Of a DNA stretch of 41,333 bases, positions 996 through 29,524 are shown piece after piece (the stretch's first letter is position 1; the number at the start of each line of letters is the position of its first letter). The translations under genes were made by a program, and so were the position numbers. The notes beneath the pieces are model-generated. The model was not told where the DNA came from. It did not search any database and saw only the letters and a program-made list of their open reading frames with translations. This DNA is from a virus, in IMG/VR virus record IMGVR_UViG_3300014050_000058, positions 1 to 41,333 of that record. The stretch is one strand, 5' to 3'.

Positions 996-1604
996 TCAAA
1001 GAATTGCAAAGTCCCTTGCGGAAGTTGGACCCGCGAAGGTTGGGATAACACAAAGGATTCGTGAAGCAGCAGCTCCGGTGCCGTCGGGATCAAAATAGAT
1101 GGTTTGGGCTGCTCCAGCAGATCCCATTCGAATGAATGTCGGATCTACAGAGGTTGGAGTGCCATTGAGAGCGTAAGCGAAGGGTTGCCCACTCACAAGG
1201 CCAAAAGAGGATGCCTTGACTGCAATCCTGTCAACCCCTGGCTTGAAGTCTTGGATAATGTCGCAATTGAACTGTCCGGCGGAGCTGAAAAGGAAAGTGT
1301 CCGCTCCACGGTCTCCCCAAAGGGTGTCCATACCCAAACCACCATCGATAACATTGTCTCGTTGGTTGCCAGAGATAGTGTTAGCCCCATTGTTCCCAGT
1401 TCCGTTGTTAGCTCCCACCCCAAGACGGAGAGTGCTAATTCCCTCCTGTAGAGTGTAATCTGAGAGAGTGGAAACTACTTCGTCACTGTAGCTTCCGGGA
1501 ACGAGTCCCGTGATCGTGTCACCAACGTTATTAACGTAAAACACGTCGTAGGCAGAAGTAGAAGCAAAGGTGTCAGCACCAAGAGTTCCTTTGAAAATAG
1601 CCAT
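996..1604 (-). CDS. RTX-like calcium-binding repeat protein
   Basis: A 202-residue protein. After an N-terminal stretch (FKGTLGADTFAS), residues of about 65-115 carry degenerate nonapeptide repeats of the RTX/hemolysin type (NTISGNQRDN, VIDGGLGMDTLWGDRGADTF), followed by an aspartate-rich IIQDFKPGVDRI segment typical of serralysin-type C-terminal domains. Such domains bind calcium and are common in secreted cyanobacterial proteins. No catalytic domain and no signal peptide are visible, so this is a stand-alone domain, perhaps a virion or adhesion protein. It is the last gene of the NAD-salvage operon running from 4824, though not functionally tied to it. Residues WGDRGADTF fit the family well. 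Confidence 0.75.
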   Translation of the reverse strand: MAIFKGTLGADTFASTSAYDVFYVNNVGDTITGLVPGSYSDEVVSTLSDYTLQEGISTLRLGVGANNGTGNNGANTISGNQRDNVIDGGLGMDTLWGDRGADTFLFSSAGQFNCDIIQDFKPGVDRIAVKASSFGLVSGQPFAYALNGTPTSVDPTFIRMGSAGAAQTIYFDPDGTGAAASRILCVIPTFAGPTSARDFAIL

Positions 1605-1656: not shown

Positions 1657-1779
1657 TCACATCTTGTGTGTCCCCCTATGAACTAAAGAGATTCCAACCA
1701 CAGGAACCAGAATCAGTGCGCTTCCGAGCAAAGAGGCAAAGAGGGTGTTACCCATGAGATGCACAATGGCATCTTTCAC
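1657..1779 (-). CDS. small membrane protein (about 40 aa, GTG start)
   Basis: A short frame whose GTG start (1779) overlaps the stop of the HNH gene. An in-frame ATG at 1755 would give 32 residues. The product has one hydrophobic helix (LLGSALILVPVVGISLV) and a short basic tail, so it is probably a single-pass membrane peptide. The stop-start overlap supports translation; the function is unknown. Confidence 0.45.
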   Translation of the reverse strand: MKDAIVHLMGNTLFASLLGSALILVPVVGISLVHRGTHKM

Positions 1780-2366
1780 ACATACAAGTACTCTTTCCAT
1801 TCCTCGACCTCGGAGGATCCGATAGATACGGAGATTTTGTTGTATGGAGCTTTAGGCTTTTCTGCCAAGGTGGTGCCACGTGCCCTGATTCGGCTTTCAA
1901 GCATACCGATTTGGTAGCTGTCCCAACTGAAGGGAAGAACAGACACGTTGGTGGTTTCCTTGTCGAAGACCTTCCTCAGAGCCTCAGCCCACTCTTCTGG
2001 TGTGCGGTTATCTTTGCAATTGTTACAGTCCAGACAGCTAGTGACGAGATTCAGCCAAGTGTCTTGACCACCTTTTGACTTTGGCAACACGTGGTCGATC
2101 GTTAAGTTGGGACCTTTGTATCCGCAGTACTGACAGGTGTGTTCGTCTCTTTTGAGAATCAGAGTCCTTGAAGGGTTGCCCGCAGCCATCTTTGAATGGG
2201 GCACTCTTACGTACTTTTTAAGCCTGATCGTACGACTTGAAACCACGTGAGCCTTGTTTTTAAGGACAAGAATCCTGGCTCTTTTCCAAGAAGTGTGGTT
2301 GAGGGGTTCGTATGAGGCGTTAAGCACCAAGATGGTTTTCAGGTATGCAACTTTGTTGTAGTCCAT
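1776..2366 (-). CDS. HNH endonuclease
   Basis: A 196-residue HNH nuclease of the type common in cyanobacteria and their phages. It opens with the family signature LVLNASYEPLNH. A zinc-binding pair CQYC (residues 78-81) precedes the catalytic IDHVLPKSKGG (Asp91-His92) and is matched by CLDCN (111-114). It could be a free-standing homing-type nuclease or act in phage DNA metabolism; the sequence does not decide this. It sits 35 nt downstream of the nicotinamide phosphoribosyltransferase gene. Confidence 0.9.
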   Translation of the reverse strand: MDYNKVAYLKTILVLNASYEPLNHTSWKRARILVLKNKAHVVSSRTIRLKKYVRVPHSKMAAGNPSRTLILKRDEHTCQYCGYKGPNLTIDHVLPKSKGGQDTWLNLVTSCLDCNNCKDNRTPEEWAEALRKVFDKETTNVSVLPFSWDSYQIGMLESRIRARGTTLAEKPKAPYNKISVSIGSSEVEEWKEYLYV

Positions 2367-2401
2367 AACTATCAGCGTAATTCCTCATCGCACGAGGCTG
2401 T

Positions 2402-3895
2402 TCAATTGAGTAGACGTTGTTTGATGTTTTTCAGGCTGTTGGTTTCCCTTCCATAAATCACTGAGTCCTTGAAAACAGTTCTTAGGCATCCCAGTTCTTC
2501 TTGTTCAGGTGTTTGGCTCTGCAGGAGATAGAAATTTCCCTGAGAGTCTTTTTCGACCCGAAGAAGACCCTTAGCGGATTTTTTCACTCCACTGTCAGTC
2601 ACAGGGTCTTTCATCACTTCTACCCCAGTTCCATTGATGTCTACCCAGGTTGTTTTGAATCCGATTCCAAGGGTGTCTCGTGTGTGGTACTGGTAGGTGT
2701 AAGAACCGACTCCGAGGAGAATGTTACTACTGGCCCAACCTTGCTTTCTCATGGTTTCGAGGATGGACCGTGCCCTGGCAAGAGTAATGGAATCGCCGTA
2801 AATGAGACCGATTCTCGGGTTCAACTCTCGGAAGCCTTTCTCATTCACTGAGCCACCAAAGGTGTTCCAGAGAAGTTCGAGAGAACCCAAGTATGCTGGG
2901 CTGTTTGGATCTGCTTCAGGGTCTCCGCAAATGATCTTAAGAGGGTCACCACTATCAGGCCTGAAAACAACTTTGGCGAAACCTGAACTATTGGGTTGCC
3001 TACTCAGAATTTGTTCCTTGAGGGTGGGTGCAATGTTGGTAAGAACATTCCAGTAATTCCAAGTGTCGCTGACAATGCTGATAATTCCCGAGGGATAGAG
3101 CTCGGTAATAAGCCTGGTGTAGGTTTCAAGCTCGGTATCTTTACCGCCGGCAGACATCACACTGTGCTCTGTGGCTGGAACTCCCCCTCCGATGTAGTCT
3201 CCCCCTGTGTCGTAGTAGTCTTCGAGGAAGTCGATGGAAAGAATTGTATCTGTTCCGGTGAACGAAAACAGGTGGCCGATAGAGTGAGAAGCGGAATCGT
3301 GAACACCCCCGACTCCCCTAAACGAAAAGTCATGGGCTTGATAGTCTACGAAACTTTTGTCAGAGCAAGTTTCCTCAGCGTAGGAATCGAGCAGCTTGCG
3401 GTATTCGTAGGCAATTGTAGCGATGTTGACAGACTTCCAGATGTTTGAGGAGAGAGCGGACTCTACGTAGTTGGTTACCCAGTGGAAGTCAGGATGCGTA
3501 TTGACAGAAGTAAGAAAGGGTACTTTGATATCCACCCTGCTGCCCTCTGGCAGAGCTTTGATATGGAGTGGAATATATCCGAGATCGTGGAGTTCGGCCA
3601 AGTGATCAATTCCTACCACACCTTCTCCTAGGGATGTATCCATCCTACGCTTGTACTTATCAAGCACTTGTTTTTTGGGTTGCCTGAAGAAAGTGTCATT
3701 CCAAAGGTCTCTCAAGAACCAGGTAAGCTCTCCTTGGATTCCAGCCACTACAACTTTTCCATCGGATGCAATACCATTGGCATGGTTCAAAGACCTTGGC
3801 GTCATATTGGAGAATACATACCTAGTACCTTCGGGGTACTGTCGGTAATGGCCAGTCTTGTAAAAATCGGTGGCGGAAGGAGCAAATAGTTTCAT
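2402..3895 (-). CDS. nadV: nicotinamide phosphoribosyltransferase (Nampt/NadV-like)
   Basis: A 497-residue protein, full length for the Nampt family. This family joins nicotinamide to PRPP to make NMN or, in the phage NARP1 variant, joins nicotinamide to ADP-ribose-pyrophosphate to give NAD+ directly. Diagnostic segments are DFYKTGHYRQYP at the N-terminus, ATEHSVMSAGG (active-site His region), VSDTWNYWN, VFRPDSGDP and LLGVGSYTYQYHTRDTLG. Its ATG overlaps the stop of the PRPP-synthetase-like gene (ATGA), so the two are co-translated. That pairing is the organisation described for phage NAD+ reconstitution against NAD-depleting defences. Sequence alone does not tell NARP1 from a PRPP-fed salvage route. 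Confidence 0.93.
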   Translation of the reverse strand: MKLFAPSATDFYKTGHYRQYPEGTRYVFSNMTPRSLNHANGIASDGKVVVAGIQGELTWFLRDLWNDTFFRQPKKQVLDKYKRRMDTSLGEGVVGIDHLAELHDLGYIPLHIKALPEGSRVDIKVPFLTSVNTHPDFHWVTNYVESALSSNIWKSVNIATIAYEYRKLLDSYAEETCSDKSFVDYQAHDFSFRGVGGVHDSASHSIGHLFSFTGTDTILSIDFLEDYYDTGGDYIGGGVPATEHSVMSAGGKDTELETYTRLITELYPSGIISIVSDTWNYWNVLTNIAPTLKEQILSRQPNSSGFAKVVFRPDSGDPLKIICGDPEADPNSPAYLGSLELLWNTFGGSVNEKGFRELNPRIGLIYGDSITLARARSILETMRKQGWASSNILLGVGSYTYQYHTRDTLGIGFKTTWVDINGTGVEVMKDPVTDSGVKKSAKGLLRVEKDSQGNFYLLQSQTPEQEELGCLRTVFKDSVIYGRETNSLKNIKQRLLN

Positions 3896-4824
3896 TTGAG
3901 GGTGTATACAGCAGGAACAAAGGGGTTGCCTTCTACTGGCAGCTCGACGCCAGGGAACAAATTGGCTGTGTAGATTCGCTCAATGAGCAAGCGGTCGTCT
4001 TCCAGGAAGACATCTAAACCTTTAGAGAAGATTCCATGAGTGACGTAGAGACTTACCGAAGAAGGCTCAAGGTATTTCCAGATTTCCTTCGCAAGTTCTA
4101 TAAAAGTGCGACCCCCATCACAAATGTCGTCTACTATGAGAATGTCTTTTCCCTTGATAGATGCGGGAGAATTCTCGTGGGAGAGTCTCGTATTAAATCT
4201 ATTGACAAGTGCAGTACCAGTAATTTTTCCATCACCGGGGTCTCGAATTTTCTTACCAAGCACTTCCACCTGCAACCCAAAACCCAGAGCAGCTTTCTCG
4301 GCCCTGTCAATAGCCCCTTCATCGGGGGGTATGATAAGGGTGTTTTCGCCGGAAGGGAATCCTTTTTCGCCCTTGAAGGACTCAATCAAGTTGTCAACTT
4401 CAATATTGACAAACTCTGGTTCTCCTGAACCTTTGCGGCGAAACACATTAGACCCTGGGTTGTGTACGTCCCAAGTAATAATCTCGTCTCTATCATTAAG
4501 ATTGCTCTTCAGCGTATCGAAAAAGACCTTCAGGGAAAGGGACTCTCCCTGGAAGCATGCCCTATCCTGCCTAGAATAAGGGAGGTAAGGAATAACTACC
4601 CTCAAAGAAGCATCGGAAGACCTCTTTATAGCATCTATAAGGAGAAGAGATTCAATGATTTCTTCACTGTCAGGGTACAAAATCTTAACTGTAAACTCTC
4701 CGTACTCCTCAACGGAGGGGAGCCTGACATGCACTTCTCCAGCAGAGAAGTTGAATCTGTCATAGGGAATGGACACACTCTCAGAAGGGTCTCTTTTGAG
4801 TTTCCCGTGGAGGCTTATGGGCAT
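3892..4824 (-). CDS. ribose-phosphate pyrophosphokinase (Prs/Adps-like)
   Basis: A 310-residue member of the PRPP-synthetase family. It has the catalytic-loop-like PYLPYSRQDRACFQGE segment, WDVHNPG, and the phosphoribosyl-binding ILIVDDICDGGRTF. Classical Prs makes PRPP from ribose-5-phosphate and ATP; the phage paralogue Adps pyrophosphorylates ADP-ribose. Fusion of translation with the following Nampt gene (4-nt overlap) indicates one pathway. It is the first gene of its operon, with a leader of about 27 nt from the promoter at 4852-4897. Relative to host enzymes the subfamily is undetermined, so I give no gene symbol. Confidence 0.9.
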   Translation of the reverse strand: MPISLHGKLKRDPSESVSIPYDRFNFSAGEVHVRLPSVEEYGEFTVKILYPDSEEIIESLLLIDAIKRSSDASLRVVIPYLPYSRQDRACFQGESLSLKVFFDTLKSNLNDRDEIITWDVHNPGSNVFRRKGSGEPEFVNIEVDNLIESFKGEKGFPSGENTLIIPPDEGAIDRAEKAALGFGLQVEVLGKKIRDPGDGKITGTALVNRFNTRLSHENSPASIKGKDILIVDDICDGGRTFIELAKEIWKYLEPSSVSLYVTHGIFSKGLDVFLEDDRLLIERIYTANLFPGVELPVEGNPFVPAVYTLK

Positions 4825-4851
4825 CTGTGTTGGTCGCGGTGCTATAGTTCT

Positions 4852-4897
4852 ATATTAGCGGGAAGAGGCAGGCAAGTAAAGGTCGGTTTCCCGACCC
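4852..4897 (-). promoter_or_regulatory. promoter of the NAD-salvage operon
   Basis: -35 TTTACT (4875-4880), 17-bp spacer, -10 TAATAT (4852-4857). The upstream box reads GGTCGGGAAACCGACC, a near-perfect palindrome. It drives the Prs-like, Nampt, HNH and downstream genes. Confidence 0.8.
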
Positions 4898-4904
4898 TTA
4901 TTTG

Positions 4905-5006
4905 CTAGCTCTTTCGGAACTTGGAGGACAACCAGAAGCCGGAAATGGCTCCTGCGAAGTACATTACCAAGGCGAAGATCAACTCAAGGGAGAGTACGGA
5001 ACTCAT
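4905..5006 (-). CDS. 33-aa membrane peptide after the holin-like gene
   Basis: The ATG overlaps the stop of the preceding membrane gene (ATGA). The product has one long hydrophobic segment (LIFALVMYFAGAISGFWL) and a basic end (SSKFRKS). Its place at the end of the lysis cassette suggests an accessory lysis peptide (antiholin or spanin-like). This is a positional inference only. Confidence 0.5.
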   Translation of the reverse strand: MSSVLSLELIFALVMYFAGAISGFWLSSKFRKS

Positions 5007-5224
5007 TTGTCTTTCGAGGTGGTTGCAACGTTGTTGGTTCGAAGTCCACTGAGCAAGTCAGTGAGAAAGGCAGTCAATGGTTTCTTGATCTCAGGGAACG
5101 CTGTTACCAAGTAAAGCAGCACGCAGATCAGAGAAATCAGAAAACTCGGAGAAAGAGCAGCAACAACAAAGAACGAAGATACTTTGATTTGTTCTGCGAT
5201 GGTTTGCTTGTCTTCGATGTCCAT
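5003..5224 (-). CDS. putative holin-like membrane protein (73 aa)
   Basis: I start at ATG 5224, followed by a charged N-terminus (MDIEDKQTIAEQIK). A hydrophobic region of about 35 residues (FFVVAALSPSFLISLICVLL and beyond) can form two short or one long transmembrane segment, and the tail is polar. Size, topology and position directly after an RlpA-like gene and a lysozyme gene fit a holin. No specific holin family is recognised. Confidence 0.6.
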   Translation of the reverse strand: MDIEDKQTIAEQIKVSSFFVVAALSPSFLISLICVLLYLVTAFPEIKKPLTAFLTDLLSGLRTNNVATTSKDK

Positions 5225-5243
5225 TTGGTTTAAGGGTGTTGTG

Positions 5244-5582
5244 TCAGAGAGAACGTATGCACACATGGCCGACTCCCGAGGAAATGATGCCAATCCTTTG
5301 CGCAGCTGCCTGACTAAGGTCAATCAGTCTGCCACCGTGGTATGGCCCTCGGTCATTGATGCGGACGTCAACGGACCTGCCGTTGACAGTGTTGACAACT
5401 TTGACAGTTGTCCCCAACGGAAGACTGGTGTGTGCAGCAGTCAAGGTGTTGGGTCTGAAAGTTTCTCCGCTGGCCGTCAGGTTGCCATACAACCCTGGGC
5501 CATACCAGCTTGCTTGCCCACAGGAAGCGTGGGCGCACATTGGAAACAGAGAAAGGGTGATTGCCAGAACGTTTCGAATCAT
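5244..5582 (-). CDS. RlpA-like double-psi beta-barrel protein, secreted
   Basis: A 112-residue protein starting at ATG 5582. The first 20 or so residues form a signal peptide (MIRNVLAITLSLFPMCAHA) followed by a mature start SCGQASWYG. The rest matches the RlpA double-psi beta-barrel: ASWYGPGLYG, LTASGETF, TAAHTSLPLGT, VRINDRGPY and IDLSQAAA. RlpA proteins act on septal peptidoglycan, some as lytic transglycosylases; the conserved Asp in NDRGP is present. It lies between the lysozyme and holin-like genes with 4 nt separating it from the lysozyme stop, so a role in host wall breakdown is likely. Confidence 0.85.
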   Translation of the reverse strand: MIRNVLAITLSLFPMCAHASCGQASWYGPGLYGNLTASGETFRPNTLTAAHTSLPLGTTVKVVNTVNGRSVDVRINDRGPYHGGRLIDLSQAAAQRIGIISSGVGHVCIRSL

Positions 5583-7753: not shown

Positions 7754-7782
7754 TTGGAAAGAGGGAGACCTTAGCCTCCCTC
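7754..7782 (-). terminator. rho-independent terminator after tmRNA
   Basis: The minus strand reads GAGGGAG-GCTAAGGT-CTCCCTC followed by TTTCC: a 7-bp stem with a short U-rich tail, directly 3' of the tmRNA coding piece. It may alternatively be part of the tmRNA structure. Confidence 0.6.
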
Positions 7783-7992
7783 AAACAGAGTCGGAGTGCG
7801 TGGCTCAAACAGCCACAACAGCCCTCTCGAACTTGACGATTTTGTTAGCGTCTATTTTGTGCTTGTGCAAGCAGCTTTCACTTGAGTGAAATCTCCACCT
7901 CGTCGAAACCTTGGCACCCCCTTGTAATGGAAGTGAGGGGAATCGAACCCCTGTCCGAGATGTCATCTTCCCAAACTACACCTAGTTTTGAG
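7783..7992 (-). ncRNA. ssrA: two-piece, circularly permuted tmRNA
   Basis: The acceptor piece comes first (minus strand), with T arm GACAGGGGTTCGATTCCCC and 3' strand CACTTCC plus A73 at 7928. After only 6 nt the coding piece starts at 7921 with GGGGGTGCCAAGGTTTCGACG, carrying the tmRNA hallmark GGTTTCGACG. The two acceptor strands pair over 7 bp and include G3-U70, the alanine identity pair. The tag frame (7805-7849) begins at a GCT resume codon and encodes ANKIVKFERAVVAV. The permuted order and ANKIV start are typical of alpha-cyanobacteria. The tag's last residues are VAV rather than the usual VAA, which should weaken ClpXP recognition. CCA is not encoded. Transcription is probably from the promoter at 9284. 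Confidence 0.88.
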
Positions 7993-8271
7993 TCATTCGG
8001 TAGGACTATCCAACATCACTATTGAGGGAGAAGAAGCACCCATTGCAGCAATGTCGTCTTCCGAGAGAGTTTCGCAGAATTCTATAAAGTCATTGAGGCC
8101 CCAATGACACGCTTCGATCCACAATTTATTCCCTTCTTTGTCACTCGTTTGGAAGGCCAATGCCATTGCGTCGGATTCCCTCTGGTGACACAGGGCATAA
8201 GTCTCTTCGTCAAGAGAGACAGGTGCTCCGTTGCTCATCGCATATAGGACTCTGAGAAACTTAGGGCTCAT
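7993..8271 (-). CDS. hypothetical protein (92 aa)
   Basis: The ATG overlaps the stop of the 8268-8456 gene (ATGA), and the stop lies right at the 5' edge of the tmRNA acceptor piece. The protein is acidic and helical (LDEETYALCHQRESDAMALAF, FIEFCETLSEDDIAAMG). I do not recognise a family. Confidence 0.7.
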   Translation of the reverse strand: MSPKFLRVLYAMSNGAPVSLDEETYALCHQRESDAMALAFQTSDKEGNKLWIEACHWGLNDFIEFCETLSEDDIAAMGASSPSIVMLDSPTE

Positions 8272-28600: not shown

Positions 28601-29524
28601 TCAGGAAAGAGCAAGCATTTGCTCTAGCGGCTGCAATGCTCTGACCCTAAGCCCCTCTTCAAGGTGAATTTGAGGGCTTAAATCTCTCAAGCAGTTGCGC
28701 ACTTTTTCAAGAGTATTGAGACGCATATAAGGGCAAAGATTGCAATTGCAACCATTCCTATTTGGGACTTCGAGATAAGTTTTATCTGGTGCCAACTGTC
28801 TCATCTTGTGGATGATGCCAGGCTCCGTGAGAACAATAAAAGTTTTCGCCTCACTCTCCTGAACCCTGCGTAACAAGGCACTCGTAGAACCAACAAAGTC
28901 CGAAAGTCGCAATAAGGCTTCTTCGCACTCAGGGTGAGCAATCACCTCGCACCCCGGATTGCTGTTCCAAAGTTCCATGAGTGCTTCTTCGCAAAATTGC
29001 TCATGGACTTGGCAACTGCCATCCCAGAGCGTCAACTCGCGGCTTGTTTGCTCAGCAACCCAACGTCCCAGATTCTTGTCCGGTGCAAACAGAATCGGAC
29101 GGTCCTTTGGAATTTGATTTACAAGACGAACAGCATTACTGCTGGTGCAAATTAGATCACTCTGGGCCTTAATCGCTGCTGAACAGTTTATATAGCTAAT
29201 TACGTAATGGTCAGGGTGCTTCTCACGGAACTTGGCGAAATCATCGGGCAAGCAAGCATCGGCAAGGCTGCACCCTGCATTAAGGTCTGGCAGCAAGACG
29301 GTCTTGTTCGGATTGACAATCTTCGCTGTTTCTGCCATGAAATGAACTCCGCAAAAGACAATCGTGTCCGCATCCGTTCCAGCAGCTTGGCGGGCCAGTT
29401 CAAGGGAATCTCCAACGAAATCAGCAATTTCCTGGATTTCAGGGTCTTGGTAGTAATGCGCCAGGATGACTGCTTTCCTTTGCTCTTTCAGTTCGAGGAT
29501 TTCTTCACTCAGGGTCATCCTCAT
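28601..29524 (-). CDS. nadA: quinolinate synthase NadA
   Basis: A 307-residue full-length NadA, the [4Fe-4S] enzyme that condenses iminoaspartate with dihydroxyacetone phosphate to quinolinate in de novo NAD synthesis. Landmarks are [42 protein letters not shown] (Cys85), [25 protein letters not shown] (Cys171), [10 protein letters not shown] and [15 protein letters not shown]. The three expected cluster cysteines are available. It is the last gene of an operon of small proteins and overlaps the upstream stop by 20 nt. A biosynthetic gene of this kind is rare in phages and likely came from a cyanobacterium. Confidence 0.93.

Follow-up and report, generated by a model that had tools for sequence, protein, structure and literature searches.

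A probable NARP1 gene pair and a picocyanobacterial-like NadA in a viral genome fragment

The NARP1 modules of SpbetaL1, Bas63 and Mycobacterium phage DyoEdafos carry, on one strand, a gene for an ADP-ribose pyrophosphate synthetase (Adps) of the Prs fold followed by one for a nicotinamide ADP-ribose transferase (Namat) of the Nampt fold, and a preprint (PMC13232231) reports that the DyoEdafos enzymes made NAD+ in vitro. In another known arrangement, NARP2 or the NadV-type sets of KVP40- and phi-Grn1-like phages, a Nampt is combined with a nicotinamide mononucleotide (NMN) adenylyltransferase; the phi-Grn1 set is described in PMC7824862. Here, IMG/VR record IMGVR_UViG_3300014050_000058 was analysed over its 41,333 bases (the window), a single virus record and a fragment of a phage genome. 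An Adps-like gene (positions 3892-4824, minus strand, 310 aa) and a Namat-like gene (2402-3895, minus strand, 497 aa) follow one another in the order found in NARP1. On the evidence of the selectivity-clamp motif, the counts of Adps neighbours and the tree positions of both proteins, the pair very probably constitutes a NARP1 module.

The gene pair and its Namat-like protein

Both open reading frames (ORFs) are intact, and the sequence-only reading, which had described them as adjacent and overlapping by ATGA, was correct: the TGA stop of the Adps-like gene and the ATG start of the Namat-like gene share bases 3892-3895 (minus strand). The single shared promoter that it also proposed found no support, as a sigma-70 pattern scan of positions 1700-5400 gave two sites against 3.0 expected, neither of which precedes the first gene of the pair on its strand (start at 4824). 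The overlap itself suggests co-transcription. A second viral contig of 12.5 kb carries the same pair at 100% identity. Pfam matches of the pair were NAPRTase/NAMPT_N and Pribosyltran_N/Pribosyltran, and those in PHROG were phrog_448 and phrog_619. A further profile, phrog_12872 (547 positions), matched both window proteins, each in a different part, as if a fused or shortened Adps-Namat exists in some phages.

The best solved-structure relative of the Namat-like protein is PDB 9w5x/9w5w. This entry was equated with SpbetaL1 Namat on the strength of its residue numbering and motif, both of which fit PMC12774641. According to that paper, the clamp helix of Namat has the form GSX-Phi-X-Phi-X-Phi-TRD, with X aromatic, and is missing from canonical Nampt. 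The window protein has GSYTYQYHTRD at aa 397-407 (positions 2675-2707, minus strand), with aromatic residues at positions 3 and 7 of the motif. Of the adenine-contacting residues of SpbetaL1 Namat, F392, Y396, T398 and D400 correspond to Y, Y, T and D in the window. The residues of the nicotinamide and ribose sites (D13, Y15, F189, R192, D215, R306, D308, G360, D361 and R399) are all kept, and the Nampt-like catalytic core is present, with Ala362 replaced by Ser, likewise in DyoEdafos. The Nampt fold and the nicotinamide site are common to the window protein and the NARP2 or NadV-type enzymes, whereas identity to the canonical Nampts compared is only 28-30% and no adenylyltransferase was found in the window.

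A tree of Namat and Nampt sequences was built from 122 rows and 486 columns; some rows represent the same contig twice, and every fourth of the 80 control Nampts described below was included. All 99 Namat-like rows, among them DyoEdafos and SpbetaL1, formed one clade that held none of the 23 Nampt rows (node 0.80, branch 1.535). Within it, the window protein fell in a 14-row clade with support 1.0 and shared 67-69% identity with its sisters. Two Namat-like proteins, encoded at L045 4855-7302 (minus strand) and L185 5001-7448 (plus strand), reach 815 aa because an insert of about 310 aa, in frame, separates RPD from SGDP in the catalytic site. The insert looks like an intein, starting with CYDSDTQ and ending with VSGN; the Pfam intein models gave no match to it.

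The Adps-like protein and the distinction from ordinary salvage

The Prs loop DD-x-IDTGGT binds the 5-phosphate of ribose-5-phosphate. In its place the Adps-like rows have DDICDGG-x-TF, and they lack QIQGF/Y. In the window protein the replacing loop is DDICDGGRTFIEL (aa 232-244, positions 4093-4131, minus strand), and DDICDGGRTF and DVHNPGSNVF stand where a canonical Prs would have DD-x-x-DTGGT and QIQGF/Y. A tree of 105 rows comprised 93 Adps-like proteins and 12 ordinary Prs (one from E. coli, six from cyanobacteria and five from plasmid records). All 12 Prs formed their own clade (support 1.0), DyoEdafos Adps lay among the 93 Adps-like rows, and 13 phage rows, the window protein among them, formed a clade with support 0.997. 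An AlphaFold model of the window protein (mean pLDDT 72) matches Prs structures with TM ~0.55, which is compatible with either activity.

The association of the two genes was assessed in viral genomes. An alignment of the window clade, with locus-finding patterns lying outside the clamp helix, retrieved the best 80 of 210 relatives; for the control, in which canonical Nampt from phages and bacteria served as queries, the best 80 of 187 were taken. A gene counted as Adps-like when it reached 40 bits against a profile built from 19 sequences, window relatives among them. The clamp motif was present in 79 of the 80 homologous loci, the exception (L178) having an Adps-like gene, and an Adps-like gene lay in the fetched stretch of 77/80. 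Of the three loci without one (L191, L195 and L208), the last two are cut by contig ends. Unlike the window, none of the 80 canonical viral Nampt loci had either the motif or an Adps-like neighbour. The pairing of Adps-like and Namat-like genes is far beyond chance. As a practical rule, a viral gene can be assigned to Namat rather than Nampt by the clamp motif together with an Adps neighbour when database names fail to separate the two.

The sequence-only reading had allowed that the same two folds might instead supply phosphoribosyl pyrophosphate (PRPP) and NMN. In such ordinary salvage, a PRPP synthetase would feed a nicotinamide phosphoribosyltransferase, and the NMN formed would be turned into NAD+ by a host or phage adenylyltransferase. 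The folds are indeed shared, and the NCBIfam names of the pair are nicotinate phosphoribosyltransferase and ribose-phosphate diphosphokinase. Furthermore, an Arthrobacter plasmid carries an ordinary Prs and a canonical Nampt as near neighbours, and PRPP activity is reported to be retained by SpbetaL1 Namat. However, NCBIfam gives DyoEdafos Namat, for which activity was tested, the name of the canonical Nampt, so the name is not decisive and database names were discarded as evidence. The clamp motif, the Adps loop and the tree positions all oppose ordinary salvage. Both proteins group with the DyoEdafos enzymes and apart from ordinary Prs and Nampt, and the grouping with Prs and NadV on which the sequence-only reading would have yielded did not appear. 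With the trees, motif and neighbour counts in agreement, an ordinary Prs plus NadV was rejected as the identity of the pair, ordinary salvage was judged very improbable, and the NARP1 alternative of that reading is preferred.

Several features weigh against the NARP1 assignment. Within the clamp loop PRSLNHANG (aa 33-41, positions 3773-3799, minus strand), Asn37 aligns with Arg40 of SpbetaL1 Namat and is followed by His38, and the window is alone among the 99 Namat-like rows in having Asn in this column (K in 44, R in 40, H in 6, E, A and T in 2 each, S in 1 and a gap in 1). The third residue of this loop is typically Arg, Lys or Tyr according to PMC12774641, a typical and non-defining feature that is K or R in 84/99 rows. 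Secondly, the NadV of Haemophilus ducreyi plasmid pNAD1 (L023 2947-4434) falls inside the Namat-like clade, so that clade membership alone is no proof. Its sequence matches PDB 9ke8 and is 42% identical to the window Namat, but it has GAQTYQRNTRD for the aromatic clamp and no Prs-like neighbour was found beside it. This NadV possibly represents a return from Namat to Nampt, or the ancestral state. Thirdly, SpbetaL1 Namat itself additionally makes NMN from PRPP, as stated in PMC12774641. Finally, the window Adps is divergent, sharing 42-47% identity with its sisters compared with 67-69% for Namat.

As to the first of these, the same paper gives losses of 1.3-1.7 fold for single clamp changes and of 16.6 fold for R40A/F392G. 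Given the small cost of single changes, activity of the window Namat is expected despite Asn37, although this residue is the weak spot of the assignment. The divergence of Adps, its long branch in the tree (0.892) and the replacement of clamp Arg40 by Asn could also be taken to mean that the module is degraded, with Adps no longer making ADP-ribose pyrophosphate and both genes carried as passengers. Against this, both frames are intact, the motif residues are kept, and nonsynonymous divergence (pN) is far below synonymous divergence (pS) in both genes. In comparisons of the window with sister phages, for which synonymous sites are saturated, pS was 0.75-0.88 and pN 0.36-0.42 for Adps (five comparisons), and pS was 0.80-0.84 and pN 0.21-0.23 for Namat (four comparisons). 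Both proteins thus appear to be held under protein-level selection, with Adps evolving faster, and degradation is the least likely of the explanations considered.

A bacterial counterpart occurs in an Acinetobacter gene cluster (L021 5099-8316), where an Adps-like gene lies upstream of a Namat-like gene whose product is 56% identical to the window Namat and has the clamp GSFTYNYLTRD. This cluster differs in being on a bacterial chromosome, as judged by gene content, and in having a gene for a Nudix-HTH regulator-like protein after the Namat-like gene. This third gene is annotated as NMN adenylyltransferase but was read, from its sequence alone, as an NrtR-type Nudix and HTH protein, so it did not serve as a query for adenylyltransferases. 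The record 'Acinetobacter phage MD-2021a' was set aside as evidence for phage carriage, as the neighbouring genes (iron transport, copper resistance and argJ) look chromosomal. An Acinetobacter NadV reportedly works in an NMN route.

Some other loci carry additional genes. In Rheinheimera phage Barba19A, a macro-domain gene (L030 2163-2666) lies directly before the Adps-like gene, and its product is possibly an ADP-ribose-handling partner. The RyR-domain gene of DyoEdafos was not found in the window; at L161 7647-7805, near a Namat-like gene, a stretch of 53 aa matches the RyR-domain protein of DyoEdafos at 42% identity. Directly downstream of the window pair lies a gene for an HNH protein (1776-2366, minus strand; Pfam HNH), which is kept in ten related loci at 74.6-78.6% identity, followed by one for a small protein (996-1604, minus strand) with a match to the RTX calcium-binding repeat (HemolysinCabind). 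Most ORFs neighbouring the pair had no domain match, and PADLOC returned nothing useful.

NadA and the probable host

At a separate locus (28601-29524, minus strand), the window encodes a 307-aa quinolinate synthase, NadA, identified by Pfam (PF02445, E 1.4e-119) and by an NCBIfam equivalog above its curated cut-off; no PHROG family matched it. Cysteines C85, C171, C259, C261 and C264 are invariant in an alignment of six phage sequences, and three of them presumably bind the iron-sulphur cluster. Compared with the window NadA, most of the copies found on large viral contigs show 82-84% identity. The nearest relatives of the window protein in genomes (best 80 of 590) include those of Synechococcus sp. 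HJ21-Hayes and Synechococcus sp. Tobar12-5m-g, at 68-69% identity. In a tree of 98 rows, nine phage NadA formed a clade (0.992) beside eleven picocyanobacterial NadA (joint node 0.972). A search of 50,697 phage records gave nine NadA matches, of which several probably represent bacterial sequences.

The window further contains a permuted tmRNA of cyanobacterial type (7764-7996, minus strand; Rfam RF01851, 81.0 bits against a gathering threshold of 70), for which ARAGORN gave the tag ANKIVKFERAVVAV. Given this tmRNA and the grouping of NadA with picocyanobacterial sequences, the host is probably a picocyanobacterium. ARAGORN identified 22 tRNA genes, and genes for Thg1-like and CCA-adding-like proteins, an RNA ligase and a DNA ligase are also present. 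The addition of NadA and the presumed cyanobacterial host distinguish the window from the NARP1 of SpbetaL1, Bas63 and DyoEdafos, as does the Asn in the clamp loop.

NadA accompanies NARP1 not only in the window but also on three contigs (279, 277 and 134 kb); the two loci lie about 24 to 70 kb apart and therefore do not form a single operon. NadA was seen in four of the 12 distinct contigs with a window-type Namat (the 12.5-kb contig with the identical pair excluded), the others of which are or may be fragments. No NadA was found by profile search in contigs of 201 kb (G002) and 33 kb (G004), or, by pattern scan only, in the remaining six. Seven other large viral contigs encode a more distant NadA, and three of these (L337, L338 and L339 on G326, G321 and G320) also have a canonical-type Nampt, making a second combination of NadA and Nampt. 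Literature searches returned nothing on phage NadA, cyanophage Nampt, NARP1 in cyanobacteria or NAD in jumbo cyanophages; a passage containing 'nada' in PMC12965618 is part of a surname and unrelated to NadA.

NAD+ metabolism of presumed hosts and the role of the module

Genomes of the order to which Synechococcus sp. HJ21-Hayes belongs, here taken as the presumed host order, were searched for NAD enzymes. NadA was found in 149 of 150. A Nampt match was found in 12 of 299 genomes and a NadM-like match in 15, including all 12 with Nampt, which leaves 287 and 284, respectively, without a match, though genomes may be incomplete. The canonical motif was present in all eight of the Nampt-bearing genomes inspected, and a NadM-Nudix gene was adjacent to Nampt in both genomes whose neighbourhood was inspected. 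As most genomes show neither match, NMN appears to be a poor intermediate in most presumed hosts. A PRPP-based Nampt would thus leave NMN in cells most of which have no known enzyme that prefers it, a problem that NARP1 would avoid, although NMN might be accepted by host NadD.

The scarcity of NadM-like matches also speaks against ordinary salvage, as does the absence of any NadM-like, HxGH or NMN adenylyltransferase-like frame in the 41-kb window, itself a fragment. In its favour, when 17 related contigs were searched with PF01467, weak CTP_transf-like matches (the adenylyltransferase superfamily) appeared in three (G011, G012 and G002); NCBIfam scans of two of these matches gave no assignment. 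A small HIGH-type nucleotidyltransferase-like protein with a weak CTP_transf-like match is encoded in related contigs at L047 1443-1946 (minus strand) and L048 1728-2249 (plus strand), and could be an adenylyltransferase.

For the preferred NARP1 module, the Adps-like protein would transfer pyrophosphate from ATP to ADP-ribose to form ADP-ribose pyrophosphate, which the Namat-like protein would couple directly with nicotinamide to give NAD+, bypassing NMN and an NMN adenylyltransferase. During infection, the two molecules that remain once a TIR or SIR2 NADase defence has acted would be turned back into NAD+. NARP1 would then be the recycling arm, with NadA supporting de novo synthesis in the same large phage. 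From the comparisons above we infer the substrate choice, expression during infection, an anti-defence role and a picocyanobacterial host.

The same chemistry could alternatively serve general NAD+ homeostasis during a long infection, by recycling the ADP-ribose and nicotinamide released in any NAD-consuming reaction. The phage NadA makes NAD+ from scratch and does not need an NADase as trigger, and NARP1-like modules also occur in bacteria, as mentioned in PMC12774641 and as seen in the Prs-like, Namat-like and NrtR-like row of the Acinetobacter cluster. NADase-type domains are also uncommon in the presumed host order, with TIR_2 in 22/299 and SIR2_2 in 19/299 genomes, a further point that tells against the anti-defence role. 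In contrast, tested phage NARP1 examples are reported to counter NAD-depleting defences, and Synechococcus sp. Tobar12-5m-g, a near relative by NadA, has nine TIR_2 matches and one SIR2_2 match, so that such domains occur close to the presumed hosts. Homeostasis without an anti-defence role is a tentative alternative, rather unlikely but well ahead of ordinary salvage.

The NARP1 kit is already known, and less expected are its co-occurrence with a host-like NadA and a presumed cyanobacterial host. The chances appear about even that NAD supply in some large cyanophages has two arms, in which NARP1 recycles ADP-ribose and nicotinamide directly to NAD+ and a NadA with picocyanobacterial nearest relatives boosts de novo synthesis in a host order mostly without Nampt or NadM matches. 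The virus would then bring in the first direct route from nicotinamide to NAD+. The phages in which NARP1 has been tested infect a few heterotrophic bacteria; with a picocyanobacterial member, its range would come to include phages of major primary producers that live by photosynthesis. The combination of NARP1 with a host-type NadA predicts that these phages protect NAD+ in two ways, by rebuilding it and by new synthesis.

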